Below are positions 839 through 34,661 of a DNA stretch of 34,661 nt, piece after piece; position 1 is the first letter of the stretch, and each line of letters opens with the position of its first letter. Location: NCBI GenBank assembly GCA_946479985.1, contig CAMLIF010000029.1, positions 1-34,661 of the forward strand, written 5' to 3'. A program made the position numbers and the translations under genes. Below the pieces are notes generated by a model, which ran no database searches, was not told where the DNA came from, and was given only the letters and a program-made list of their open reading frames with translations. The stretch comes from an uncultured Flavobacteriales bacterium. GTDB lineage: Bacteria > Bacteroidota > Bacteroidia > Flavobacteriales > Crocinitomicaceae.

Positions 839-2887
<2,049 letters not shown>

Positions 2888-4669
2888 TTAGTTTATTAAT
2901 TCTCTTAATTCCAGCTTTTTGATTCGTGAATGAATCGCACCGCGTGTTCTTCCAAAATGGTCGGCTATTACTTTGATCTTAATTCCGTCAAAAAACATTC
3001 TGCTCAATTCTGAATCCGAATCGGCGGTCCAGGGTTTATAAGCGTCTGCATGCGTTTTTCGAATTTCTTCGTAGCTATAAGCTTTTTCCAAAGTCGATTG
3101 CGATTCTGAACCAACGTTCTCGTAACCTTCATTAAGATCAAGTGGTTCTGCAATTTCATTCGGTATTACAATTACATGTTCTGAAGCTTTAAATTCTTTA
3201 GGAACCAATGATTCCGGGATCTTTAAAATGTTTCGCGTCCTGGTAATTGCAACGTATAACAGGTTAATTTCTTCATTTAGTTTTGCAATTCCAATATTTT
3301 CTTTCTCTTTGGTTTCTGAAATCTTTCTCAACTGATCTTCCGTTATAAAATCGTTTATCAGCTCAATTTCATCATACTCCATTCCTTTGCAGCGATGAAC
3401 GGTAGAAAAAACGATTTGAGCCTTGTCTTTTTCATCCTTTTCAACATGCATTTCCTTGAGTGTTTTCAAAAGTCCGGGAATCTCATTACCATAAGTGTGT
3501 ACAATTTTTACCATCATTCCTAGCTGCAGGTCTTCTGTTTTATCAATGTATTCTTCCAGCTCGTTTATATTGCTCATTGATTTGATGAGTTTGTCTTTAA
3601 TTAGATATCGTTTGGAATTATACAGATTGAGCACATCATATAGCGAAGCACCTTCATCGGCGTAGGTGTACGAGTGAATGTTTCCTTCAAAGTAAATGTG
3701 TTTGATGTCTGTATCTTCGGAAATACATTCTATGGCTCTCATCAATAATCCGAGATTGGAACGGGCAATTATGGCTTTGGTATTTGAGTCTGTGGAAACG
3801 CCGCTTCCGATTATTTGCAGGGGTTCATAGGTGTTTATGAGTTTTTTGAAGTTTAGGACTTCACCCGCTAAATCAGCTATTTGCTGAGGGAAACGAAAAC
3901 TGGTTGAAAGAAAATGCGGAGAGAATCCCGTCCTTTCAAGTGAATTTATTGCATAACGCCATCCATAAATTTGCTGATGAGTATCGCCAACAATTACTTT
4001 TGTTGCATTTTGTTTGAGAAATACATCCAGCATTGCAGGTGACGCGTCTTGTCCTTCATCAAACAGAATGTAATCATAATTCAAATCCGGATTCGAAAGC
4101 TGGAATTTTTTGAGGTAGAAATCGTGTGTAATCTCAATTTTTCCGGTCGACATTAATTGCCAGAATACTGATGCCTGATTCACTATATAGTTATAGTGAT
4201 TGAACGCAAAACTGCGTGCTTTCCTATCGTTCAATGTGTCCAAATAGTTTGTTTCTGTCAGTTCTTTTTTGTTGCTGTTGCAATAGCACGACATGAACTT
4301 CAGGATGTGATTGGCCAGTACATATTCATTGTGTTTTTCACCTGAATTACTGATGTTCAGTATTTCGGTAAGTTCGTGTATTTGATAACCCTGATTTCTG
4401 ACTTTATAGCCATTTCTGAAAACCATGTGTCTGTATGCCAGAGAATGGGCGGTTTCTACTTGCACATTCTGTAAGTTTTTCTGAGAGAATTTCTTGATAG
4501 CATCCAGTTTTACTGATTTGTTGAATACCAGATAAAGAATTTTACTTTTCGCTGGTCGTGAACCCGCATATTCTATAACGGTAGTGGTTTTTCCTGATCC
4601 GGCAACGGCATTTATTTTAAGGTCTCCGGCCGACCCGATAATAAGCTTTTGTTCATTTGTTAATTTCAT
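2888..4669 (-). CDS. Superfamily 1A (UvrD/FBH1-like) DNA helicase with C-terminal helix-turn-helix
   Basis: ATP-dependent DNA helicase, 593 aa. Visible motifs: Walker A AGSGKTT with K27; LVFNKSVKLDA and TAHSLAYR (about 47-80), typical of the FBH1-like branch; Walker B DEGQD (204-208); motif III GDTHQQIYGWR (228-238); motif IV STSFRFP (255-261); motif V VHRCKGMEYDE; and motif VI LYVAITRTRN. The last ~45 residues (W..DSDSELSRMFFDG ... IADHFGRTRGAIHSRI) look like a DNA-binding HTH that tests 'SANT/MerR-like' spacing. I see no nuclease domain. It is oriented against both neighbours, ligA and dapA, and converges on ligA stop to stop. Known relatives dismantle recombination intermediates or act in phage and defence contexts; the role here is not determined. 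Confidence is high for the helicase family and moderate for the FBH1 link. Confidence 0.9.
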   Translation of the reverse strand: MKLTNEQKLIIGSAGDLKINAVAGSGKTTTVIEYAGSRPAKSKILYLVFNKSVKLDAIKKFSQKNLQNVQVETAHSLAYRHMVFRNGYKVRNQGYQIHELTEILNISNSGEKHNEYVLANHILKFMSCYCNSNKKELTETNYLDTLNDRKARSFAFNHYNYIVNQASVFWQLMSTGKIEITHDFYLKKFQLSNPDLNYDYILFDEGQDASPAMLDVFLKQNATKVIVGDTHQQIYGWRYAINSLERTGFSPHFLSTSFRFPQQIADLAGEVLNFKKLINTYEPLQIIGSGVSTDSNTKAIIARSNLGLLMRAIECISEDTDIKHIYFEGNIHSYTYADEGASLYDVLNLYNSKRYLIKDKLIKSMSNINELEEYIDKTEDLQLGMMVKIVHTYGNEIPGLLKTLKEMHVEKDEKDKAQIVFSTVHRCKGMEYDEIELINDFITEDQLRKISETKEKENIGIAKLNEEINLLYVAITRTRNILKIPESLVPKEFKASEHVIVIPNEIAEPLDLNEGYENVGSESQSTLEKAYSYEEIRKTHADAYKPWTADSDSELSRMFFDGIKIKVIADHFGRTRGAIHSRIKKLELRELIN

Positions 4670-22572: not shown

Positions 22573-23769
22573 CTATTTTTCTTCTGCCGTGTTGAATAAG
22601 GAAATAGAAGCTTTCGTACCCTGGGAACCGGATTTATTTGAAAGATGAAAAGTTGCATCTATCTGCTCGCTTAGCGATTTAATTAAATCGATGCCAAGCG
22701 TGTTTTCCCGTTTTCTTTCATCTTGAATTCCAGGTCCGTTGTCTTCCAATTCAATCATAAGGTATAAGCCGTTCAACCAGACGGTGATACCGATTTCAAG
22801 TTTTTTTTCCGGTAAAACGGCATGTTTGTATACATTCGTTATCAGTTCATTGAGAATTAATCCCGTAGGAACAGCCTTGGAAATAGGTAAATATATATCG
22901 TCTTCAATTTTGATTGTCACATCGGCATTTCCACCAAATGAATGTTCTATGCTCAGAATAAGATCCGTTAAATAAGTCTTCAGGTTTAAACTACCTACCG
23001 TTTCACTGGAATACATCTGCTGGTGGACAAGCGCCATAGAAAAAACACGATTCCGGCATTCCTCCAGAGCATCCTGAACGGCTTTCGACTCGGAATTGTT
23101 TTTCAGAATATTCAACAGACTCGTTACGATATTCAGATTGTTTTTTACCCGGTGAAAAAGTTCGGCGAGTAAAGTGGCTTTATCTCCTGCCGATTTCCTG
23201 ATTTGCGATTCCTGTGAAATGTTTGTCCAGGTAATGATAATGATCAGAATGAGCCCGCAGAAAAATGAAAGCAGAATATTGAATCCCTGCAGAAAATCCA
23301 ATAGTTCAGTATCAGGTTCGAAGGGTGTATACTGTTTGGTGACAAAGATCAGAGAACTAATGCAGAGAAAGTAAATGATCAGCCATACGATCAGGTGTTT
23401 AAACGTTTCCTTCCTTCCAAGCAACTGAACAATGGAAAGTGTTAGAGGAAAAAAATACATCAGGGCGTAGCTTTCCATTTTCATGAAAACAGTTACTGCC
23501 GAAAGAATATAAATGCCGATAGCAAAGAATAAATAACTGCTGAGGAGATATTTCCCTAAGCGGTTGAATAAATAAACAAGTGTGGCCAGGCCGAAAACAG
23601 CAAAGAAGTGAATGTTTAGTTCTGTGAATCCTAAGAAAGAGAACAATGTGAGCGCGAAAAGAACATTTAGCGTTCCGATGAGATTCAGGAAATCTATTTT
23701 TCTGATGAGTATTAATTCCCATTCGGCGAGCGTTTCCGAATGATTAACTTTCAAGAATGCTTTAATCAC
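22573..23769 (-). CDS. Orphan membrane histidine kinase, HisKA_2 type
   Basis: The 398 aa sensor kinase has about six N-terminal transmembrane helices (residues ~25-180, including LNVLFALTLFSFLGF and LILIIIITW) with no obvious extracellular domain. The HisKA_2 dimerisation helix has the phospho-acceptor H206 in ELFHRVKNNLNIV. The HATPase domain has its N box in NELITNVYKHAV and G1 box in ELEDNGPGI. The only upstream start that keeps the first helix is a GTG (23767-23769), so the start is less certain than usual. No response regulator is encoded next to it. It is divergent from the GPH transporter across a dyad-rich 323-bp region. Confidence 0.9.
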   Translation of the reverse strand: MIKAFLKVNHSETLAEWELILIRKIDFLNLIGTLNVLFALTLFSFLGFTELNIHFFAVFGLATLVYLFNRLGKYLLSSYLFFAIGIYILSAVTVFMKMESYALMYFFPLTLSIVQLLGRKETFKHLIVWLIIYFLCISSLIFVTKQYTPFEPDTELLDFLQGFNILLSFFCGLILIIIITWTNISQESQIRKSAGDKATLLAELFHRVKNNLNIVTSLLNILKNNSESKAVQDALEECRNRVFSMALVHQQMYSSETVGSLNLKTYLTDLILSIEHSFGGNADVTIKIEDDIYLPISKAVPTGLILNELITNVYKHAVLPEKKLEIGITVWLNGLYLMIELEDNGPGIQDERKRENTLGIDLIKSLSEQIDATFHLSNKSGSQGTKASISLFNTAEEK

Positions 23770-24092: not shown

Positions 24093-25445
24093 ATGCCCGA
24101 TTCCCTACTAGTGCCCAAGCCTCGCGTTCCTAACAAAATCATTCTGGCTTATTCTTCAGGTATTGTTGGGTGGAGCATTTTGGTCAACATGATCTCGGTT
24201 ATTCTTGTTTTCATGTATTCTCCAACTGAAAAAAGCGGGTTACCAATCTTAATTTTTCAAGGGGCTATTTTTGCTGCTATTAATCTTATTACAATTATTA
24301 CAACAAGCGGAAGACTTTTGGATGCTCTTTTCGATCCGATAATTGCCCAAAGGAGTGACAGAAGCAATCACAAATCGGGAAGAAGGATCCCATTTATGCG
24401 TTTTGCGATTATACCTGCTTGTCTTTTTTGCTGGCTGGTGTTTATTCCTCTTACCAACACGGAAAGTAACCTCAACGCAATCTGGCTGGTATTTACGCTT
24501 ATCATGTTTTATGTTTCCGCTACTACTTATGGAATTCCATATTACGCCCTGCTTCCGGAAATGGCATCCGATTTACCGGAAAAAGTAAAGCTTACAACCT
24601 GGCAATCGGTCGGATATGTTGTGGGAATTGGATTGGCATCAAATGCATTTAACATTACATCATTATTCCAGGATACACTTGGCTGGGATAAGCTGGCAAG
24701 TTTGCAGCTAACTGTTGGATTGTATTGTGTTTTAGCGGCATTTTTCATGGCAATTCCAGTCTTGTTTATCAAAGAACGCGATTGGTGCAAGGGCGAAGCT
24801 TCTTCTATTAAACTGACCACTGCATTACGACAATCGTTGAAAAACTCTAATTTCAGACTCTATCTTTTGGCCGATTTCGCCTTCAATACTTCTATTACAA
24901 TTATACAAACCGGGCTGATCTTCTTCGTTACCATTTTGGTGAAACTACCGGAAGAAATAGGGAATAAACTGATGATCACTTTGGTGCTTTCGTCGTTTAT
25001 TTTCTACCCGATCATTGGTCCGGCATCGCGAAAATTCGGAATTAAACGAATCATTTCCTTGTCGCTGGTAATTCTTGGTTTTGTATTTACAGGATTGTAT
25101 TTCCTGGGGAATTTCGACTTTTCTCCAACTTTCCAGATTTTCTTTATTGTCTGCGTAGCAGCTCTGCCAATGGCAACTATGAATATTCTTCCGTTAGCTC
25201 TTTTGGCTGATATTATTGAAAAAGATTCTCAGCGTACCAAAGTGAACAAAGAGGCATTGTATTTTGGTGTCCGCTACTTTTTTGTGAAGCTGGCCCAGAC
25301 TTTCGGAATGGCGATTTTCTCCATGCTGCTGATCTATGGGAAGGACGTAGGTGACGATTTTGGAATTCGTTTGAGCGGCTTAGTCGGAAGTGTTTTGTGC
25401 ATTGCTGCCGGAATTTACTTTTTGCGGTATCAGGAAGAGAATTAA
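24093..25445 (+). CDS. GPH-family (MelB-like) major facilitator transporter
   Basis: The 450 aa inner-membrane carrier has about 12 hydrophobic segments. The GPH-family signature is clear between helices 2 and 3: RLLDALFDPIIAQRSDR followed by KSGRRIPFM, corresponding to the D...D..GxxxD cation-symport region of MelB. Another family segment is YGIPYYALLPEMASD. Classic members import sugars with Na+ or H+, but GPH-like carriers also occur beside CFA-type methyltransferase/DUF1365 gene sets, so a lipid or lysolipid substrate is possible here by context alone. It converges on the CFA-like gene across a hairpin-rich 257-bp spacer. Confidence 0.9.
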   Translation: MPDSLLVPKPRVPNKIILAYSSGIVGWSILVNMISVILVFMYSPTEKSGLPILIFQGAIFAAINLITIITTSGRLLDALFDPIIAQRSDRSNHKSGRRIPFMRFAIIPACLFCWLVFIPLTNTESNLNAIWLVFTLIMFYVSATTYGIPYYALLPEMASDLPEKVKLTTWQSVGYVVGIGLASNAFNITSLFQDTLGWDKLASLQLTVGLYCVLAAFFMAIPVLFIKERDWCKGEASSIKLTTALRQSLKNSNFRLYLLADFAFNTSITIIQTGLIFFVTILVKLPEEIGNKLMITLVLSSFIFYPIIGPASRKFGIKRIISLSLVILGFVFTGLYFLGNFDFSPTFQIFFIVCVAALPMATMNILPLALLADIIEKDSQRTKVNKEALYFGVRYFFVKLAQTFGMAIFSMLLIYGKDVGDDFGIRLSGLVGSVLCIAAGIYFLRYQEEN

Positions 25446-25482
25446 AAGAAAGGTTTGTTATTAACTGCTCCTTAATATCCTT

Positions 25483-25608
25483 TTCTCTAGGAATTGCTAG
25501 AGAAGTAGGTGATGGGATTGCAGTATTCTGCAATTCTCTTTGCGTTCTTATTTCTTTGCGGTAATATAATTTGAGTCATATTAACCGCAGAGAAAGAAGA
25601 TCGCAAAG
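25483..25608. terminator. Three consecutive hairpins between convergent transporter and CFA-like genes
   Basis: In order: TTCTCTAG/CTAGAGAA (25483-25504), ATTGCAG/CTGCAAT (25517-25534), and a large imperfect inverted repeat with ~27-nt arms (about 25538-25564 and 25582-25608) starting CTTTGCG and ending CGCAAAG. The last arms contain the CTTTGCG...GCGGT pattern seen as dispersed intergenic repeats in Bacteroidota. Together they probably act as a bidirectional transcription barrier. The rest of the 25446-25702 spacer holds nothing recognisable. Confidence 0.55.
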
Positions 25609-25702
25609 ATTTGGTCCGCTGTCAGTGAACCATGTGAGTTAGAAATAAAATCACCTAATCCAGGATAAGTCATTTCTCTAATTCTTAGTTTTTCAGTCTT
25701 AA

Positions 25703-26926
25703 TTATTTGCGAAGCAAGTTGTTCGGTCTGGTGTATACCAATTGCATCACGTTGATGTTTCTCATTTCGAATGCCGCTTCGCAATAATTCAGATAGTAAT
25801 TCCATTTACGGGCAAACGTTTCGCTAAATCCAAGCGCTTTCACTTCTTCCTGTTTGGCATTGAAATTCTCAAACCAGGTACGAAGAGTTCGTGCGTAGTG
25901 AAGGCCAAGGTCTTTTACATCAACAAGTGTTAGATCACTTACTTCGTTGATAATTCTGTTCATTTCCCCGATTGAAGGCAGCAGAGAACCCGGAAAAATA
26001 TGTTTTTGAATCCAGTCGACACCATTTTTCAATTCCTCAAACCGTGAATCGGGACAAGTAATTACCTGCAGGGCCAATATACCATTTGGTGCAAGTAGTT
26101 TATGGCATTGAGTGAAATAGGGTTCAAGGAAATCTGCCCCGACTGCTTCCAGCATTTCAATCGAAACAATTTTGGTGAACGTTCCTTTTACTTTTCTATA
26201 ATCCTGCAATTCAATTTTCACCAAATGATCTAATCCCGCCTGTTTTACGCGTTTTACTGCTTCTTTGTGCTGTTCAGTTGAGATAGTAATAGAAGTTACC
26301 TTACAACCGAAATTAGAAGCCATGTAAATAGCGTTTCCGCCCCAGCCTGAACCAATTTCCAGCACATGATCTTCCGGAGTTAAAAACAATTGTTCACTTA
26401 AGCGATGATATTTTGCTTTTTGTGCTTGTTCCAACGTATAATTTTCCTCCTTGAAGTAACCCGAAGAATAAGTCATTGTCGGATCGAGCCAAAGTGCAAA
26501 GAAATCGTTGTTGAGGTCGTAATGTTCAGAGATATTCTTTCGTGAACCGGAAATGCTGTTGGCTCTTCTTGAATGAAAAGTACGATTGTAAAATTTCAAA
26601 AGATTCAATACAACCGATTTCACAGAACTGCCCGAAACAGTAGGAGCGTGATCTACATTGATAAGGAACCACGAAATAACATTCGAAATGCTGTCAGTAT
26701 CCCATTCTCCGGCAACATAACCTTCTCCAAACCCAATATCTCCGTAAAGAACACAGCGTTTGAAAAACGCGGAATCATTTATTGTAATGTTCGCTGTAAA
26801 ACCGGCAGAACCGTTGCCAATTTCTTTTAATTCACCCGAAGGCAGGCGTAAATTCAAACGACCATTAGGCATTGCGCTTAATAGTTTGACAATTTGTTTT
26901 TCGTAGAATATTGGTTTATTCGTCAT
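25703..26926 (-). CDS. Cyclopropane-fatty-acid synthase family SAM-dependent methyltransferase (variant active site)
   Basis: The 407 aa protein aligns along its full length with bacterial Cfa enzymes, which transfer a methyl group from SAM to the double bond of unsaturated phospholipid acyl chains. An N-terminal substrate domain (1-115) precedes the methyltransferase domain with SAM motif VLEIGSGWGG (188-197). Against E. coli Cfa bicarbonate-site residues, C139 is S155 (MTYSS), E239 is kept as E260 (EMLEAVG), H266 is Q287 (ALQVIT), and Y317 is kept as Y344. Loss of the Cys and His suggests the product may be a methyl- or methylene-branched or otherwise modified chain, not a cyclopropane. It lies 57 bp downstream of DUF1365 on the same strand, in the usual DUF1365-CFA order. 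Confidence 0.9.
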   Translation of the reverse strand: MTNKPIFYEKQIVKLLSAMPNGRLNLRLPSGELKEIGNGSAGFTANITINDSAFFKRCVLYGDIGFGEGYVAGEWDTDSISNVISWFLINVDHAPTVSGSSVKSVVLNLLKFYNRTFHSRRANSISGSRKNISEHYDLNNDFFALWLDPTMTYSSGYFKEENYTLEQAQKAKYHRLSEQLFLTPEDHVLEIGSGWGGNAIYMASNFGCKVTSITISTEQHKEAVKRVKQAGLDHLVKIELQDYRKVKGTFTKIVSIEMLEAVGADFLEPYFTQCHKLLAPNGILALQVITCPDSRFEELKNGVDWIQKHIFPGSLLPSIGEMNRIINEVSDLTLVDVKDLGLHYARTLRTWFENFNAKQEEVKALGFSETFARKWNYYLNYCEAAFEMRNINVMQLVYTRPNNLLRK

Positions 26927-26983
26927 TGGGTAATAATCTTATTTCTATAAGTCTGATGTCTTTAATCTTTTCGTCGTGACAGA

Positions 26984-27775
26984 CTATCTCTTCTTACGAT
27001 AAACATCACGCTGCAGATCTTGAAATTCCGATTTTTTGTAAAATTTTATTTTCTTCAAATATAGCTTTAATGCTTGCCAATGAATTAATGTAATGATCTT
27101 CAGCGGAATGAATGGGAAACGGATGCTGTACCAAAATAGTCTTCGGGAAGTGAGTTCTTTTTTTATTCCTATCAGATTACTGGTAAAAATACGCTGATCG
27201 TTTTCGTAATCATCAATTCCAATGACTAATGATTCATTTGGTTCCGCAACTTTGAAATGAAAATCGGCATCATGTGAAATATAAGGCGAAACATAAAAAT
27301 ATTTGGTTCTGCGCTGTTCGAATAATTTCCCGTTAAACTCTGTTTTACCCATTAAATAAGGTTTCATTTCCTTAAAGGTATTGGTTATTTCCACCAGAAC
27401 GTTTATGAGTTCCCCGTTTACATTGTAGATGTAATAAAACGAAACAGGATTGAAGTTATATCCCAATACATTGAATCCGGTAAGGAGCATGATTTTCCCG
27501 ATTTCATCCGTTGAACCGTTTTCTTTTAAAAACAGTAAGATCTGTTGTTTAACCGGTTTCGATTTATCCGGATTTTCTAATGGAAGCTGCAAATGTTCCG
27601 AATCCCGGAAACTGAATAAATTCCACTTATTTCTTGAAATAAGCCAATGTTTTTGGGCTAAATCATCCAATTCATCCAAATCAACAAAAAAATAAAACAC
27701 ATTGTACTGAAAATGATGCTCTTTCGGAGAAAACCGATGGTGCATAACTTTTGCTTTATACAATGTTGAATTCAT
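26984..27775 (-). CDS. DUF1365 family protein
   Basis: The 263 aa protein matches DUF1365: LYKAKVMHHRFSPKEHHFQYNVFYFFVDLDEL at the N-terminus, LLTGFNVLGYNFNPVSFYYIYNVNGELINVLVEITNTFKE in the centre, and a hydrophobic FWYSIRFPFIPLKIITLIHWQALKLYL segment near the C-terminus. The biochemical role is not known. The family is almost always encoded with an FAD amine-oxidase-like protein and a CFA-type methyltransferase, both found in this window, which points to lipid acyl-chain modification at the membrane. It is the first gene of a two-gene minus-strand unit with the 407 aa methyltransferase and is divergent from the HEYGH protein gene, 58 bp away. Confidence 0.92.
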   Translation of the reverse strand: MNSTLYKAKVMHHRFSPKEHHFQYNVFYFFVDLDELDDLAQKHWLISRNKWNLFSFRDSEHLQLPLENPDKSKPVKQQILLFLKENGSTDEIGKIMLLTGFNVLGYNFNPVSFYYIYNVNGELINVLVEITNTFKEMKPYLMGKTEFNGKLFEQRRTKYFYVSPYISHDADFHFKVAEPNESLVIGIDDYENDQRIFTSNLIGIKKELTSRRLFWYSIRFPFIPLKIITLIHWQALKLYLKKIKFYKKSEFQDLQRDVYRKKR

Positions 27776-27833
27776 TTTTTCGTTAAGAGAAGATAAAGTG
27801 TAAATTTAATTGCTCAGCTTATTAGTGTGTATA

Positions 27834-28784
27834 ATGTGCGGAAAAAGTATTGAACAGGTTTCTAAGTTACGATTAATTGTACTGCTTGGTTTTTTACTCT
27901 CAAGCCGAAATTCGTTTGCAGGCTCAGAAGATCGCTCGGGGAACACCTTGTTTATAGTAGATTCCTATCTCAGTGGCTGGGTTTCCGGTTTTTGTACCGG
28001 AAAAGAAGGCAGATGGAAAAACGCCGCCCGTGTTTCAAAGTTGAAAGCCAAAAACGATTTAAAAATATGGGGCGGCTTGTTTGTTTCAGATTCAAACAAG
28101 CGTTTTATTGGTCGAACCGGAGAAGTACTTTCAAGAATAACTTATCAGCTTCCGCAAACCATTGGTGGATTTGGGACTGCACAATTCTACAATGTTTTCA
28201 CGCGAAAAGTAAATACAGTTGATTATTGTTTGGGATCCACTGTGCTGAATATGAATGTTTCCTGGCCGGGAGTTTCTTTGGGCTCATATATTCTTGCCAA
28301 AGAAGTGATCAAACCAGATCCGAATAACAAAATGTTCCAACATGAGTACGGACACTATTTACAGAGCCAGCGAATGGGTTTTGCCTATCTGATTCGTGTT
28401 GGATTACCCGCCATTATGAGTAAAGGTGAACACGATGAACATCCGGTTGAAGTGAGCTGCACCGCAGAAGCATGCATTTATTTTCATTCGACCTATTCAA
28501 ACTTTGAGAATAATACGAAATATGGCGATACGCTGGGTTGGAACTACTATTTCAATCCGCTTCCGGATACTGTAGGATACAGGGTTCCGTACAAATTAGA
28601 TAGTTTAACAGCAATTGATTTTGAGAACCACACTCACCTGGAACAACTTAAAAAACTAAAAGTTCGGGCTACTTTTATCGATTATGCCAGTTGGGTTTTT
28701 CCACCTGCTGCGTTCATTGTCGGGTGCTGTCACTCCAGAAAATATAATAAAGAGCAGTTAGCCGACGAAGCTGCTGAAGATTAA
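27834..28784 (+). CDS. Secreted HEYGH-motif protein, putative zinc-binding protein
   Basis: I chose the ATG at 27834, giving 316 aa with a hydrophobic signal-like N-terminus (LRLIVLLGFLLSSRNSFAG); an upstream TTG at 27810 is less likely. The key feature is FQHEYGHYLQSQRMG (HEYGH at 170-174), followed ~30 residues on by EHPVEVSCTAEACIYF (E206). This resembles the HExxH plus downstream Glu of metalloproteases, and similar HEYGH-LQSQ segments occur near the C-termini of Bacteroidota RHS-type proteins. LGWNYYFNPLP follows. Whether it cleaves anything is unknown. It interrupts the lipid-modification gene set in the opposite orientation. Moderately Cys-rich, it ends with a second hydrophobic stretch (WVFPPAAFIVGCC). 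Confidence 0.8.
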   Translation: MCGKSIEQVSKLRLIVLLGFLLSSRNSFAGSEDRSGNTLFIVDSYLSGWVSGFCTGKEGRWKNAARVSKLKAKNDLKIWGGLFVSDSNKRFIGRTGEVLSRITYQLPQTIGGFGTAQFYNVFTRKVNTVDYCLGSTVLNMNVSWPGVSLGSYILAKEVIKPDPNNKMFQHEYGHYLQSQRMGFAYLIRVGLPAIMSKGEHDEHPVEVSCTAEACIYFHSTYSNFENNTKYGDTLGWNYYFNPLPDTVGYRVPYKLDSLTAIDFENHTHLEQLKKLKVRATFIDYASWVFPPAAFIVGCCHSRKYNKEQLADEAAED

Positions 28785-28905
28785 TTGATTAGTTGAACTG
28801 TGAATAGTGCCGAACTGGTATTCCTCGAAAGAAATCGAAAATGTTTCGATCTAATTGTTTATATATCAGTACGTTGTTCTAAAAGCTGATGTTTTCATTG
28901 AATAT

Positions 28906-28950
28906 AGAGCTTTCAAATGTTGTTATTTCGCTTAAAGCTCTTTATTTTTA
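28906..28950 (+). terminator. Terminator-like hairpin after the HEYGH gene
   Basis: AGAGCTTT (28906-28913) and AAAGCTCT (28934-28941) are perfect 8-bp arms with a 20-nt loop, followed by TTATTTTTA. It lies 122 bp after the stop, and the loop is long, so termination is uncertain. A separate dyad, TATCTC-GAT-GAGATA, is at 28954-28968. The rest of 28785-29063 holds no gene I can support. Confidence 0.4.
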
Positions 28951-29063
28951 GAATATCTCGATGAGATAAAAGCTTGCAATCACTACGCACTGAATTCCCT
29001 TTATTCAAGGAGTGTATTGTTCTGTTTTTACCTTATTGGACTGTTACTATTTAACTGAAAACT

Positions 29064-30410
29064 ATGCCCCAAAAGGTTGTTGTCAATGGTGGTCGTACGG
29101 CTACTTTGGAAACCGGACTGAACAAATCCAGAATGCTCTCGAATTTCATCAAGATTACGACGCTGTTTTCCGTTTTTTACATTTTGGTGAGCTGGATGAT
29201 TGATTTTCATGCGGGAATGCTGATCATGAGTTGCAATACGGTCGTTTTTCTTGTAAATCTCTGGCTTTTCGATTCGGGAAAGATCTCATTTAAAGTCGCA
29301 TCGAATTTCTACATCGCGAATTGTCTGTTTGTAGCAATATTGCTTTGTACTTTTTATTCAGGCGGGATTTTTTCGCCTGTTTTACCCTGGTTTATACTCA
29401 TTCCAACCATTTCATTGCTGTTGCTCGGGATTTGCCGGGTAACAGTTTTCTGGCTTCTGCTTACTGTTTCAATTGTTCTTGCTTATGGCGTTTTAGGTCA
29501 CATGGGTTATGAATACCCCAACAATTACAATCACCAATTTTGGGATAAGATATTTACAACAACCTGTGTTTTCGGATTGGTACTGATTGTTTACCTGGTA
29601 ACTTACATTTTCGAAAGCGTTAAACAAAAAGCTTTGCTCAAACTTGCTGAGAAGAACAAGGAAATCACCGATGGCATTTATTATGCACGTTATATTCAGC
29701 AGGCAATGCTTGCTCCGGCTCCTTTGATTAACAAACATTTACCGGATAATTTCATCATATATAAACCGAAAGACATTGTTTCTGGCGATTTCTACTGGGC
29801 GCGTGAAGACGGTGAATATTTTTACCTGGCCGTTTGCGATTGTACCGGACATGGGGTTCCGGGCGCGTTTCTGAGTTTGCTTATTACAAGTTTTCTTAAC
29901 GAAGCAATTACTGAAAAAAGCATTTATGCGCCAAATGAGATTCTGAACTTTGTACGTATCCGGGTAATGGAATCCACCTCCAAAAATAATTCACAGGACG
30001 GAATGGATGGCACGGTCATGTGTCTCCATAAACCAACGGGTCATATCACATACGCTTCTGCAAACAGCAACGTCGCGCTAATCCGGGATAACGAACTGAC
30101 AAAACTCCCGAATGATAAAATGCACGTTGGTTTCAGTAGCAAAATGGATTCTTTCACATTGTTTGAAAGCCATATCGAAAAAGGTGATATGTTCTATTTT
30201 TACTCAGACGGTTTTCCGGATCTATTCGGTGGTCCGAAAGGAAAAAAATACTCTTCACGCAGGTTCAATCAGAAATTATTAATGATTTCGCATCTGGATG
30301 TTAAGGAACAGAAACGTGCCCTGGAAGATAGCTATATTTCATGGAAAGGTGAATTAGAACAAATCGATGATATCTGTGTGTTTGGATTCCGGTATGATAA
30401 TCTTGACTAA
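29064..30410 (+). CDS. Membrane-bound PP2C/SpoIIE-type Ser/Thr phosphatase
   Basis: The 448 aa protein has six hydrophobic helices (residues ~28-185), a short helical linker (KQKALLKLAEKNKEITDGIYYARYIQQAML) typical of Bacteroidota SpoIIE proteins, and a C-terminal phosphatase domain (~220-448). Metal and catalytic motifs are present: IYKPKDIVSGDFYW (GD at 241-242), CDCTGHGVPGAFLSLL (D259 and GHG), DGMDGTV, YSDGFPDLFGG and DDICVFGF. Such proteins usually dephosphorylate anti-sigma antagonists or other partners in partner-switching systems. No anti-sigma factor or STAS gene is in the window. It converges on the FAD oxidoreductase gene with a 15-bp gap. Confidence 0.92.
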   Translation: MPQKVVVNGGRTATLETGLNKSRMLSNFIKITTLFSVFYILVSWMIDFHAGMLIMSCNTVVFLVNLWLFDSGKISFKVASNFYIANCLFVAILLCTFYSGGIFSPVLPWFILIPTISLLLLGICRVTVFWLLLTVSIVLAYGVLGHMGYEYPNNYNHQFWDKIFTTTCVFGLVLIVYLVTYIFESVKQKALLKLAEKNKEITDGIYYARYIQQAMLAPAPLINKHLPDNFIIYKPKDIVSGDFYWAREDGEYFYLAVCDCTGHGVPGAFLSLLITSFLNEAITEKSIYAPNEILNFVRIRVMESTSKNNSQDGMDGTVMCLHKPTGHITYASANSNVALIRDNELTKLPNDKMHVGFSSKMDSFTLFESHIEKGDMFYFYSDGFPDLFGGPKGKKYSSRRFNQKLLMISHLDVKEQKRALEDSYISWKGELEQIDDICVFGFRYDNLD

Positions 30411-30425
30411 GAACCGGAAAAATTA

Positions 30426-31676
30426 TCAAATCAATCCCTCGCACAATTTCACTGCACTTGCATAGGCATCTTCGTGAAAACCGTATTTGAAATAGCTTCC
30501 GCAATAGTAAACGGGACCTGACAAGTTCAATTCCTGTAATCGCTCCTGTGCTTTTATTGCATCAACATCAAAAAGCGGGTGCTCGTAATCAAATTCCCGG
30601 ATGATTTTTGAAGGATGAACGCTGCCTTCTTCTGCATTGATACTTACAAAGTAGTTGTGTTTATCCGAAACTCCCTGAAGCGAGTTCATCCAATAGATGG
30701 TTGTTGGCTGCAGTTTTTGATTTTTGTTTACAATGCGGTAGTTCCAGCTGCTCCAGACTCTCTTTGTCTTTGGCATAATAGCTTCATCAGTATGAACTGT
30801 TGCCTTGTTGTATTGGTATTTGAAGCAGGAAAGCAGTTCTCTTTCAAGTGGTGTCGGATCTTTCAAACAGGCTAGAGTCTGATCTCCATGTGAAGCAAAG
30901 ATCACTTTGTCGAACAACTCTGATCGGCCGTCAATGAACGTTAGCAGCACTTTTCCGTCAGAAGTTCGTTCAGCAGAAATTACTTTGGAATTCACGTGGA
31001 TTCTGTCTTTGAATGGAGCTATAAGAATCTTTTTATAGCTTTCACTTCCACCTTCAAGAGTGTACCACTGATGCTGTGTGTTTAATCCCAGGAAACCGTG
31101 ATTGAAGAAGAATCTGATCAGTGTTTTTGCCGGGAAATCCAGCATTTTATCCATTGGGGTAGACCAAACTGCGGCACTCATTGGAACCAGGTATTTCCAC
31201 AACATGTCTTCACCGAAGTGGTGTTTTTTAATGTATTCTCCAATTGTCATCCCGTCGTAAGCAGGATCATCTAAAATCTGTACGCTTAGTTTATTGAATT
31301 TGGAGATTTTCATCAGCATCCGAACAAATTTCGGGTTGAAAATGTTCTTGCGCTGTGCAAATAATCCGCTTAATCCGGAACCGCAATATTCCAATCCGCT
31401 TGGTACATGCTGCACGCTAAACGACATGTCAGTTTTCTTAACCGGAGCTCCTATTTCTTCAAACAACTTACAGAGCTCGGGATAGGTTTTGTAATTGAAA
31501 ACCATAAATCCGGTATCCATACCCACTTCTTTGTCTCCTTCCGAAACGAAAATGGTATTGGTGTGCCCACCGATGTAATCGTTTTGCTCGAATAAGTGAA
31601 TATCGTATTTGTGCTGCAGTAAATGTCCGCAGCCCATTCCGGCTATTCCTGTTCCTACAATTGCTAATTTTTCCAT
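30426..31676 (-). CDS. FAD-dependent amine-oxidase-like oxidoreductase (COG2907 type)
   Basis: The ATG at 31676 is the best start, since the Rossmann fold begins at once (MEKLAIVGTGIAGMGCG); an upstream in-frame TTG adds four residues. The 416 aa flavoprotein has the dinucleotide motif GTGIAGMG (8-15), E30, and GGHTN (36-40) typical of amine oxidase/phytoene-desaturase-like enzymes. It also has KVIFASHGDQTLACL and a C-terminal FAD-binding end (GPVYYCGSYFKYGFHEDAYASA). This group is genomically tied to DUF1365 and CFA methyltransferases; a desaturation or reduction step on the methylated acyl chain is the favoured inference. It is the fourth gene of a minus-strand unit beginning beyond the window end. 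Confidence 0.9.
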   Translation of the reverse strand: MEKLAIVGTGIAGMGCGHLLQHKYDIHLFEQNDYIGGHTNTIFVSEGDKEVGMDTGFMVFNYKTYPELCKLFEEIGAPVKKTDMSFSVQHVPSGLEYCGSGLSGLFAQRKNIFNPKFVRMLMKISKFNKLSVQILDDPAYDGMTIGEYIKKHHFGEDMLWKYLVPMSAAVWSTPMDKMLDFPAKTLIRFFFNHGFLGLNTQHQWYTLEGGSESYKKILIAPFKDRIHVNSKVISAERTSDGKVLLTFIDGRSELFDKVIFASHGDQTLACLKDPTPLERELLSCFKYQYNKATVHTDEAIMPKTKRVWSSWNYRIVNKNQKLQPTTIYWMNSLQGVSDKHNYFVSINAEEGSVHPSKIIREFDYEHPLFDVDAIKAQERLQELNLSGPVYYCGSYFKYGFHEDAYASAVKLCEGLI

Positions 31677-31756
31677 ATCAATTATCAATTATCAATTATT
31701 AATCAAAATCATCAAGATCGTAGAAGCTATCCTCTTGATAATTTATAATTGCTAAT

Positions 31757-32905
31757 TCAGTTCTTTTTTAGTTTTGGTTTAGTTGTACAATTTGCGATAA
31801 ATCGTTCGATAGCATACGTACTAACCTGTCCGCTTGGACCATTGAAATTATAATCGCAGCCGTGTGTGGCAAACGACAATTCAATGAAAACACTCTTTAT
31901 ACGAAATTTATTTAATTTTTTCATGAGTCGAGCACTGTGCTCGTGTGAAACCATTGCATCGTTCTTTCCATGAATGAGAAGTGTTGGAGGTGTATCATAA
32001 GTGACCAATTCCGGCGAAGAAGCATCCAAATATTTATCCGGATCTTGCTGTACAGTGCATCCGATGTAGTCAGTCATTACTTTGTCAACATCCAAAACCC
32101 AATCGTTTGTTATTTGTTTTGCTCCCCAGAGCATATCTGCCGGACCATAAAACGAAATGACTCCCGCAAGTTGTTTTTTCAAATCACCATAAGCAGCCTG
32201 AAGTGCAATTTGTCCGCCGGCAGAACGACCCAACAGAATGATTTTAGTTGTATCAATATTCAGTTCATCGGCACGAGATTTCAAATGGTCAATGAGCATT
32301 TTTATGTCTTCAACAGGTGCTGGATATTGATATTTTGGTGCAAGACGATAATTCATAGCTGCCACATGAATTCCACGTTCGGAAAGATAGGAGTTTAGTT
32401 CCGGAATTTGATTCGCATCACCATCGCGCCACGAGCCGCCGTGAATAACAATTACTAAAGGGGATTTTTCTGAAGCGGAAGCTTCAAAGAATCGATAGGA
32501 ATAATCCTTTCCGTCAATTGTTTGGTACACGATTTCTTTAAATGATTTTTTTGGAACATTTAAACTCAGGGACTGCCAAAAAGAGAATGGACTTGACTTT
32601 GGATCTTCACCCGTTTTTGGTCCGAATTTTTTTTGGAGTTCTGCTTCCAGGTTTTTTGTCTGATTGTATGTTACAAACGCCGGTGTGAGAAATAATCCGA
32701 AAACCAGAAGATTGACCAAATGGAGAAAGGTGTTTTTCGGAAACCAAAATCCTTGAACACAAGTATAAATTAGAATTGTCAATAAAGGAACCCATGCGAA
32801 TTCTGTTAATAGTATGCTTACTTTCCAAAGGAAATTGGTTGGTGCTCTGAAGAACAGCAAAAGGGCTAAAAGAGCGAATAAAACCGCTGGAAGGAACTTC
32901 CACAT
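31757..32905 (-). CDS. Membrane-anchored alpha/beta hydrolase (HSL-like esterase/lipase)
   Basis: The 382 aa protein starts with about three transmembrane helices (residues ~1-80: LLALLLFF, WVPLLTILIYTCV, LVNLLVFGLFLTPAFV). It continues with an alpha/beta hydrolase domain of the hormone-sensitive-lipase type: oxyanion-hole HGGSW (155-159), nucleophile S228 in GRSAGG, acid D316 in GKNDAMV and H348 in ATHGCDY. The catalytic triad is complete and faces either the periplasm or cytoplasm depending on topology, which I cannot fix. Its ATG directly follows the stop of the second CFA-like gene (TAAATG), so translation is coupled. Context suggests a lipid ester substrate, for example release or exchange of a modified acyl chain. 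Confidence 0.9.
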   Translation of the reverse strand: MWKFLPAVLFALLALLLFFRAPTNFLWKVSILLTEFAWVPLLTILIYTCVQGFWFPKNTFLHLVNLLVFGLFLTPAFVTYNQTKNLEAELQKKFGPKTGEDPKSSPFSFWQSLSLNVPKKSFKEIVYQTIDGKDYSYRFFEASASEKSPLVIVIHGGSWRDGDANQIPELNSYLSERGIHVAAMNYRLAPKYQYPAPVEDIKMLIDHLKSRADELNIDTTKIILLGRSAGGQIALQAAYGDLKKQLAGVISFYGPADMLWGAKQITNDWVLDVDKVMTDYIGCTVQQDPDKYLDASSPELVTYDTPPTLLIHGKNDAMVSHEHSARLMKKLNKFRIKSVFIELSFATHGCDYNFNGPSGQVSTYAIERFIANCTTKPKLKKN

Positions 32906-33940
32906 TTAAGGGTTGGTTTTATTAAATAGGTAATGGCTTACAATCCATTCTTCGCCGTTATTGAAGCCCCAGAGTTCTGCACACGACATGTAGAAAATAC
33001 GCCAGAAAACCCACCATTTTACCGCATTTTCTTTTCCATATGTTTCTTCGAAAAGCGGCATGATCGAAGTTTTGTTTGCATCCATGCGCTGCAGCCAGGC
33101 TTCTGACGTTTTTTGGTAATGCTGTCCGCTAACATGCCAGTGTTGTTCTATTTTCAGATCGTCGTTGAAGTAAAACATCAAATCATCAGAAGGCATAATT
33201 CCGCCTGTGAAAAAATATTTGCTCATCCAATCGCTTTCGTCAACCACTTCAAACTTATAGGCGTATTCTTTGTGTGTAAAAATGTGAATGAACAGTTTCC
33301 CGTCAGGCTTCAGTTTCGATGCTACTTTGTGCATTAATTTCTCGTAGTTACGCATGTGTTCGAACATTTCAACTGAAACTACGCGATCGAATGTTTGATC
33401 AACATCAAAAACGTTCATATCCATGGTTATAACGGTCAGATTCGTTATTCCGCGCAGTTTTGCCTGTTCGTCGATATACAGTTTTTGCGTTTTGGAATTG
33501 GAAACTACGGTGAACGTCGATTCAGGATACCTGGCCGACATGAATAATGAAAGTGAGCCCCACCCGCAGCCTAGTTCCAGTACATTTTGTCCGTTTTGTA
33601 ATTCGGCACGCTGACAAGTTAATTCAAGCATTGCGCGTTCTGATTCGGCAATATCTGTCACGCCATTTTCCCAAAAACCGGAACTGTATTTTAGATGCGG
33701 TCCAAGGCAATATTGATAGAACGCTGTTGGAACTTCGTAATGCTGTTCGTTTGCATCCTTCGTATTTACTGCTATTGGTGAAGTCTTCAGTTCAGCAATC
33801 AGTTTCATTAAATGTTCCTGCTGCAGTTCCGGATTTGCTTTCTTTTCATCCTTTAAACGAGCTTTCAACAGATTACGAATGCCTTTACGGATTAAAAAAT
33901 CGGGAATTCTATTTTTTTCAAGTAGGGATGTGTACCACAT
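32906..33940 (-). CDS. CFA-family methyltransferase, coclaurine N-methyltransferase-like subtype
   Basis: The 344 aa SAM-dependent methyltransferase belongs to the CFA/CNMT superfamily. SAM motif VLELGCGWGS is at 120-129. Versus E. coli Cfa, C139 is replaced by S87 (KYSSGFW), while E194 (EMFEHM), H219 (FIHIF) and Y275 (SGQHYQKT) keep the E239, H266 and Y317 positions. The C-terminal WVFWRIFYMSCAELWGF-type segment followed by NNGEEWIVSHYLF is typical of the subgroup that includes plant N-methyltransferases. The enzyme may methylate lipid chains or another membrane-associated acceptor. It is clearly not a recent copy of the 407 aa paralogue. It lies 81 bp downstream of DUF1295 and abuts the hydrolase gene. 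Confidence 0.9.
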   Translation of the reverse strand: MWYTSLLEKNRIPDFLIRKGIRNLLKARLKDEKKANPELQQEHLMKLIAELKTSPIAVNTKDANEQHYEVPTAFYQYCLGPHLKYSSGFWENGVTDIAESERAMLELTCQRAELQNGQNVLELGCGWGSLSLFMSARYPESTFTVVSNSKTQKLYIDEQAKLRGITNLTVITMDMNVFDVDQTFDRVVSVEMFEHMRNYEKLMHKVASKLKPDGKLFIHIFTHKEYAYKFEVVDESDWMSKYFFTGGIMPSDDLMFYFNDDLKIEQHWHVSGQHYQKTSEAWLQRMDANKTSIMPLFEETYGKENAVKWWVFWRIFYMSCAELWGFNNGEEWIVSHYLFNKTNP

Positions 33941-34021
33941 GGTTAATTGAGAATGGGACTTCGACGTTGTTCGGCCACCTTCTAGTTTGAATGAAGGTTA
34001 CGAGCTTAGTCGAGACTATTT

Positions 34022-34661
34022 TTAGTATAATTGTTTTTTGGGTAACGGAATAAATGCGCTGGTTGTTTTCTGATAAATTTTATACAATTCCCCTTTTGAA
34101 CGAATTGATTGTTCTTCCGTCATAGGAATCCCTGTAACGTTAAAGATCAGGTAAGCAATACTTAACGGACAAACTGCCGCAATATAACCGTACGGTGAAC
34201 CAAGCGCAAAAATGAAAACACCTGTCCATATCATTGTTTGAAAAAAGTAATTCGGGTGGCGTGAGTAATACCATAATCCATCTTCACAAACTTTTCCTTT
34301 GTTCGCCGGATTTTTTTTGAAGCGTGCCAATTGAAAATCAGACATTCCTTCACCAACAATTGCGATTAGCCAGATTGCCGCTCCAATATATTCAATGATT
34401 GAAAGATGCGGTTCCGGATTACAGGCAATGATGAAGTAGGGGATGGAAAGAAATACGTTTGAAACTCCCTGCATTTGAAAGAACCCGAAGAATTTCAGAT
34501 TCACATTTTTAGCCCATTCCCGGCGCAGCTGAACATATCGTCCTTCTTCATGACGGATGTGCTTAAAAACACGTGAACCAAGAAAAATGCCTAGACGACA
34601 ACTCCAAAATGCAGCCAGTCCGCACACAAGCAGTTTTCTGTCTTCAAATCCATCAGCTTTG
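34022..34661 (-). CDS. DUF1295 / steroid 5-alpha-reductase-like membrane protein (5' truncated by window end)
   Basis: The frame is open through the window edge: codons upstream of the first in-frame GTG read ADGFEDRKLLV, which fits the DUF1295 pattern (D.....L...v..W..RLg.fl..R), so the true start lies outside. The visible ~213 residues contain CRLGIFLGSRVFKHIRHEEGRY, several membrane helices, and the signature GLWYYSRHPNYFFQTMIWTGVF, shared with 5-alpha-reductase and isoprenylcysteine methyltransferase families. DUF1295 proteins recur with FAD amine-oxidase-like and CFA-type genes. It is the first visible gene of the minus-strand unit; upstream regulators, if any, are beyond the window. Confidence 0.88.
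   Translation of the reverse strand, partial: KADGFEDRKLLVCGLAAFWSCRLGIFLGSRVFKHIRHEEGRYVQLRREWAKNVNLKFFGFFQMQGVSNVFLSIPYFIIACNPEPHLSIIEYIGAAIWLIAIVGEGMSDFQLARFKKNPANKGKVCEDGLWYYSRHPNYFFQTMIWTGVFIFALGSPYGYIAAVCPLSIAYLIFNVTGIPMTEEQSIRSKGELYKIYQKTTSAFIPLPKKQLY

Follow-up and report, generated by a model that had tools for sequence, protein, structure and literature searches.

A split gene cluster in a Flavobacteriales contig as a probable furan fatty acid operon of Bacteroidota

What do the nine genes between position 24093 and the end of contig CAMLIF010000029.1, from an uncultured Flavobacteriales bacterium (assembly GCA_946479985.1), make together? On the minus strand of this stretch of 34,661 nucleotides, hereafter the window, they run DUF1295, a methyltransferase of the cyclopropane fatty acid (CFA) synthase family (MT2), a membrane hydrolase, a flavin adenine dinucleotide (FAD) oxidoreductase, two plus-strand genes, DUF1365 and another CFA-family methyltransferase (MT1), which a GPH carrier gene faces (Table 1). 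A preliminary description, made from the DNA letters, had proposed a Bacteroidota version of an acyl-chain modification pathway, related to the furan genes of RpoE/ChrR regulons and split by two opposite-strand genes. We find this interpretation largely right, as its gene families, positions and order are confirmed by open reading frames and Pfam scores, and the relation to furan genes is supported by homology and gene order. The locus probably represents a furan fatty acid operon of Bacteroidota, divided by two genes that stand between FAD and DUF1365, and we predict a dimethyl-furan acyl chain as its product.

Furan fatty acids are membrane lipids of a protective kind, and their chemistry is known from two purple bacteria. 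In Rhodobacter sphaeroides, UfaM, UfaD (RSP1091) and UfaO (RSP1090, a DUF1365 protein) are reported to convert phospholipid 18:1 chains to a monomethyl furan acid, with the oxygen coming from O2, and in Rhodopseudomonas palustris FufM adds a second methyl (PMC7380195). By family and gene order, MT1, the FAD enzyme and DUF1365 are best read as candidate UfaM-, UfaD- and UfaO-type enzymes, while the best reading of MT2, likened to FufM by family, is a predicted FufM-type methylase. The reactions were demonstrated for the R. sphaeroides and R. palustris enzymes, and by analogy we infer the same chemistry in Bacteroidota.

The gene order in the window is not a matter of chance, as it recurs across Bacteroidota. 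With an alignment of the FAD enzyme as query, named genomes yielded 80 loci, picked by their likeness to the FAD gene; the gene counts that follow cover the 55 loci longer than 20 kb, with the 25 shorter ones excluded. Carriers of the cluster include the cultured Mucilaginibacter polytrichastri (L016), Pedobacter nutrimenti (L022) and Dyadobacter frigoris (L034). The usual operon reads DUF1295-MT2-[hydrolase]-FAD-DUF1365-MT1 on one strand; a desaturase and DUF1475 frequently precede it, and a convergent GPH gene, the only one off the operon strand, frequently follows. FAD (the search gene) and MT2 are present in all 55 loci, DUF1365 and MT1 in 52 each, and DUF1295 in 51, where it precedes MT2; the accessory genes are less constant (desaturase 36, DUF1475 32, GPH 26, hydrolase 22). 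The preliminary description had regarded both the esterase and the second methyltransferase as additions: both are indeed present in the window, but MT2 proves constant and only the esterase is variable. Median gaps are 39 bases between MT2 and FAD in loci lacking the hydrolase (n = 42) and 34 bases between DUF1365 and MT1 (n = 71). The FAD-DUF1365 junction is the loosest (median 95, maximum 6,451 bases), and it is here that the split of the window falls, with DUF1365 and MT1 adjacent and the FAD gene 2.65 kb off, across two genes. The window is a split version of a conserved operon, which is unbroken in genome G368, where desaturase, DUF1475, DUF1295, MT2, FAD, DUF1365 and MT1 follow each other uninterrupted, without the hydrolase. 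At the same junction a Fluviicola metagenome-assembled genome (MAG; L001) carries a phosphatase 40% identical to the SpoIIE-type phosphatase of the window, in operon direction. If present in the window's genome, the desaturase and DUF1475 would be expected past the window end.

MT2 is absent from 7 of the 80 loci, six of which have less than 1.4 kb of upstream sequence; in L064, MT2 is absent within 10 kb, and a 69% identical MT2 is found at another contig place in the same genome. DUF1365 and MT1 are absent from seven loci, one of which (L080) ends right after the FAD gene. A search of the genomes behind the remaining six showed that four (L015, L021, L029 and L059) carry DUF1365 next to an MT1-like gene, apart from the FAD-MT2-DUF1295 part, which indicates that the operon there has been severed at the junction where the window is split.

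Co-occurrence was examined in 296 Bacteroidota genomes drawn from the phylum independently of the choice of loci. DUF1365 is found in nine of these, and a search with MT2 at a cut-off of 1e-30 returned 11: the same nine at E values of 2e-134 or better, and two others at 9e-34 and 4e-32. DUF1365 and close MT2 relatives thus co-occur in 9/9 against 0/287 genomes (Fisher p 2e-17, uncorrected for kinship), and in each of the nine the two genes are no more than 5 kb apart. FAD, DUF1365 and MT1 are neighbours in eight of the nine, and in the ninth a single phosphatase gene intervenes. Full-length DUF1295 (E < 1e-40) is present in 24 of the 296 genomes, all nine DUF1365 genomes included (p 3e-11); among the nine it lies on another contig in one and on the opposite strand in two. 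Eight regions read whole contain MT2 (8), DUF1475 (6), desaturase (5), GPH (2) and hydrolase (1). In the family of genome G001 the FAD gene (1e-60) is present in 2 of 150 genomes, G001 counted, so the operon has a patchy distribution and may have passed from lineage to lineage.

The two METHYLTRANSFERASES, MT1 and MT2, share 24% identity with each other and are separated by 100/100 branches in a tree built from 30 rows out of 170 collected, where the place of E. coli Cfa itself is unsure because its branch is long. The closest solved relatives of MT1 are Cfa structures. In E. coli Cfa, the bicarbonate that takes up a proton during cyclopropane formation is reported to be held by Glu239, His266 and Tyr317, and such ligands have been called strictly conserved among cyclopropane synthases. 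We counted residues in an alignment to E. coli Cfa, with short pieces and the E. coli row excluded and at least two of the rows duplicates. Glu239 and Tyr317 are kept in 81/81 MT1 relatives, while Gln replaces His266 and Ala replaces His240 in all 81, and the window protein also has the Gln. The position of Cys139 is held by Ser (61), Ala (13), Gly (5) or Cys (2). Judged from this alignment, MT1 does not have the full Glu239/His266/Tyr317 set and is without one ligand needed for cyclopropane formation. UfaM is reported to methylate with a shift of the double bond, yielding an 11-methyl-12-trans 18:1 chain, and the residue change in MT1 fits a UfaM-type function. If so, Gln for His would be a simple sequence test to tell methyl-alkene from cyclopropane makers among genes annotated as CFA synthase.

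MT2 belongs to the coclaurine type by its best solved relative, the coclaurine N-methyltransferase of PDB entry 6gkv, which it matches over near full length (E 7e-82, compared with 6e-32 for the Cfa structure 6bqc). We take the Arabidopsis protein AT4G33110 (LIME1) to be coclaurine-like, although a literature search turned up no paper stating so. This protein is reported to be 37.87% identical to FufM and to be located on lipid droplets (PMC10940516).

The FAD enzyme keeps its GxGxxG site in 87 of 88 relatives, the remaining one having a gap there. The predicted structure of DUF1365 is beta-rich, with weak matches to barrels. The hydropathy profile of the hydrolase has three hydrophobic N-terminal stretches before residue 80, followed by the esterase domain, and Ser228, Asp316 and His348 are found in 32/32 relatives; a role in freeing acyl chains is a guess. 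For DUF1295, Pfam additionally gives a score to the steroid reductase family, and the protein may be reductase-like, by family alone. The desaturase of the relatives matches PF00487 and has HRYSSH and HRMHH boxes (one sequence). DUF1295, the hydrolase and the GPH carrier are linked to the operon by position, and their suggested roles are inferred. The operon would single out DUF1295 and DUF1475 as candidate additional parts of the pathway.

Taken together, these data suggest the following route. The desaturase, often at the operon head and outside the window, would set a cis double bond on a membrane phospholipid chain. MT1 would then add a methyl from S-adenosylmethionine (SAM), and loss of a neighbouring proton would give a methyl-branched trans alkene; this product, and not a cyclopropane, is proposed because part of the bicarbonate site is absent. 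The FAD enzyme may introduce a second, conjugated double bond, after which DUF1365 would insert O2-derived oxygen as the furan ring closes, and MT2 would methylate the ring to yield the dimethyl-furan acyl chain. DUF1295 probably works with MT2, perhaps as a membrane reductase, and in loci that have it the membrane esterase probably cuts modified chains free or trims them. If this is right, the furan pathway extends to a second large phylum (Mucilaginibacter, Pedobacter, Fluviicola), and the compact operon would give a single-locus source of the dimethyl form. An extension of this route would amount to a new furan lipid: once the ring is closed, MT2 and DUF1295 would work as a methylase-reductase pair, and the dimethyl-furan acid would be freed and exported by the membrane esterase and the GPH carrier as an antioxidant or signal. 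We regard this extension as speculative and rather unlikely. Were it true, the singlet-oxygen families of Chlamydomonas would make the pathway common to bacteria and algae: the SAK1-dependent genes that singlet oxygen induces in this alga are reported to include CFA1, CFA2, DUF1365, DUF1295, DUF2177 and a fasciclin-like protein, CFA2 being Cre09.g398700, which another table calls the coclaurine N-methyltransferase CPLD27. This algal parallel to the bacterial clusters, drawn by family names only, may serve as a lead.

Several observations weigh against a furan product. The nearest solved structures of MT2 are plant alkaloid N-methyltransferases, and MT2 keeps all three bicarbonate ligands (85/85), so that an amine substrate or ring-forming chemistry would be compatible with its residues. 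BLAST searches with one ChrR, lipocalin, TspO and photolyase found none in 88 Bacteroidota loci (up to 21 kb), where distant ChrR forms and unlinked control are possible; the sigma factor partner of ChrR gave weak matches in 5 of the 88. Relatives encoded in the ChrR-linked alphaproteobacterial loci L099, L100 and L103 share just 31-40% identity with the MT1, FAD and DUF1365 proteins of the window; the alignments cover 95-99% of the length for L099 and 97-98% for L103. On Rhizobium plasmids, MT2-type matches occur in 34 records, which may include other CFA-type genes, against 5 for DUF1365. The MAGs of L002 and L037 contain FAD, DUF1295 and MT2, and a search of these two genomes found neither DUF1365 nor MT1. 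The R. sphaeroides operon has three further genes, which are reported as dispensable for the furan acid (PMC7380195). Finally, our literature search found no fatty acid measurement for any organism that bears the operon.

These points bear on three other explanations. A pathway that halts before the furan, with MT1 and MT2 methylating double bonds and DUF1295 saturating them to mid-chain methyl-branched acids, would account for the pairing of DUF1295 with MT2 (51/55 loci, and adjacent on plasmids), for the steroid-reductase score and for the two MAGs without DUF1365. We nevertheless consider it improbable, since the FAD enzyme falls into the amine-oxidase type. The FAD partner in tuberculostearic acid synthesis belongs to a different FAD family. 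In addition, DUF1365 is present in 52/55 loci and in four of the six checked genomes whose locus lacks it, and the characterized DUF1365 enzyme, UfaO, is required for the furan ring (PMC7380195).

That the locus simply makes cyclopropane fatty acids, the neighbouring genes having nothing to do with it, could be argued from the Pfam CMAS matches of both methyltransferases and the intact ligands of MT2. This has very little likelihood in our view, given the absence of His266 from every MT1 relative, the coclaurine type of MT2, an order conserved in Bacteroidota and a set common to Pseudomonadota; moreover, in 10/10 cluster genomes a search at 1e-15 gave exactly two CFA-family matches, each inside the cluster, and no third. 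A soluble small molecule, N-methylated by MT2 and handled by the esterase and GPH carrier, would suit the plant alkaloid relatives of MT2 and the carrier and esterase genes nearby. It is just as hard to credit, because a PF00487 desaturase is present in 36/55 loci, FAD, DUF1365 and MT1 belong to lipid-enzyme families, and the FufM relative AT4G33110 is reported on lipid droplets. The furan fatty acid operon thus remains the probable explanation.

Gene families were assigned with Pfam, whose cut-offs were exceeded for each named gene, and NCBIfam was scanned too; among the matches listed for the window proteins none reached the curated NCBIfam cut-offs (for MT2, the best 25 of 43 matches). Every named reading frame is open at its position.

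Table 1. Genes of the window at and beside the split operon (pLDDT, predicted local distance difference test).
Feature	Position	Strand	Evidence
HisKA_2/HWE-type membrane histidine kinase, adjoins GPH carrier	22573..23769	-	
GPH/MFS_2 carrier, convergent with MT1	24093..25445	+	Pfam PF13347 163 bits
MT1, UfaM-like CFA-family methyltransferase, Gln at the E. coli Cfa His266 position	25703..26926	-	Pfam CMAS PF02353 288 bits
DUF1365, UfaO-like, predicted ring-closing monooxygenase	26984..27775	-	Pfam PF07103 240 bits; model pLDDT 92
Putative secreted protein, HExxH motif (HEYGH), second splitting gene, outside the conserved set	27834..28784	+	
SpoIIE-type phosphatase, membrane N-terminus, one of the two splitting genes	29064..30410	+	Pfam PF07228 62 bits
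FAD oxidoreductase, UfaD-like, predicted desaturase of the methylated chain	30426..31676	-	Pfam PF01593/PF13450, Amino_oxidase 60 bits
Membrane alpha/beta hydrolase (BD-FAE, esterase)	31757..32905	-	Pfam PF20434 130 bits
MT2, coclaurine-N-methyltransferase-like SAM methyltransferase, predicted FufM-type	32906..33940	-	Pfam CMAS 136 bits
DUF1295, steroid 5-alpha-reductase-like membrane protein, truncated by the window end	34022..34660	-	Pfam PF06966 198 bits

The hydrolase gene begins at the base right after the MT2 stop. For the FAD gene a longer, TTG-started frame opens at 31688, and the start is probably the ATG at 31676 because aligned relatives begin there. The putative secreted protein gave zero matches in the Pfam and NCBIfam scans. 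Among the Bacteroidota relatives, an extracytoplasmic function (ECF) sigma factor and a zinc-finger anti-sigma factor are encoded at 2216-3806 (+) of L090, just upstream of a desaturase-DUF1475-DUF1295-MT2-FAD-DUF1365-MT1 operon, and fasciclin-domain genes lie near the cluster in two Fluviicola-like genomes (L124, 16033-16551, +; L001, near 19249).

The gene set is of a known kind. The Bacteroidota form is set apart by its order, by DUF1475 and by a membrane hydrolase within the operon; a further difference is that BLAST found no ChrR, lipocalin or photolyase in its vicinity. Stenotrophomonas maltophilia has a nine-gene cluster, smlt2375-2367, under sigma-Ec/ChrR (PMC11832516), which likewise combines a desaturase, an FAD oxidoreductase, two CFA-type genes and inner-membrane proteins; in contrast to the Bacteroidota operon it has a lipocalin and ChrR control, and its published table names no esterase or GPH carrier. 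On plasmid NZ_CP053948.1 of Acinetobacter sp. WY4 (L101, 100418-117425), desaturase-FAD-DUF1365-MT1-DUF1295-MT2 form one run, with a 52% identical MT2-like protein, but DUF1295-MT2 come after MT1, a lipocalin and a photolyase are nearby, and the run is without an esterase. This plasmid is mobilizable, and MT2-type genes occur on six more Acinetobacter plasmids among 40 listed records.

Other proteobacterial loci combine the same families. In the stretch read from Cupriavidus, the set has no desaturase and adjoins an alpha/beta hydrolase 28% identical to that of the window over 59% of its length. A Rhizobium tropici plasmid has RpoE-ChrR near MT1, DUF1365 and FAD, with DUF1295 and MT2 divergent; Shinella has RpoE-ChrR-DUF1295-MT2 with FAD and DUF1365 near, and MT1 was not found within the stretch. 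DUF1295 adjoins MT2 on plasmids of Rhizobium, Shinella, Acinetobacter and Cupriavidus. In Qingshengfaniella (L103, a Rhodobacterales plasmid), FAD, DUF1365, an MFS_2 carrier and DUF2177 are divergent from RpoE-ChrR, a layout that resembles the published R. sphaeroides operon; a fasciclin-domain gene (2800-3267) lies there beside ChrR/RpoE.

In Arabidopsis the same enzyme families, AtUFAMD1, AtUFAO1 and AtFUFM1/LIME1, have been proposed for furan acids, with the difference that one protein resembles both UfaM and UfaD, the proposal being based on likeness and place (PMC10940516). R. sphaeroides shares the CFA-family methylase (UfaM, RSP2144), FAD desaturase and DUF1365 in its RpoE/ChrR regulon, with UfaD and UfaO adjacent in the RSP1091-1087 operon, whereas Bacteroidota have the methylase inside the operon together with MT2, DUF1295 and often a desaturase, and ChrR was not found nearby. 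The four-enzyme set is that of R. palustris (FufM, RPA0924, and RPA2571-2569), where the end product is reported to be the dimethyl furan (PMC7380195); the locus numbers place fufM well away from its three partner genes in that organism, whereas in Bacteroidota all four stand together.

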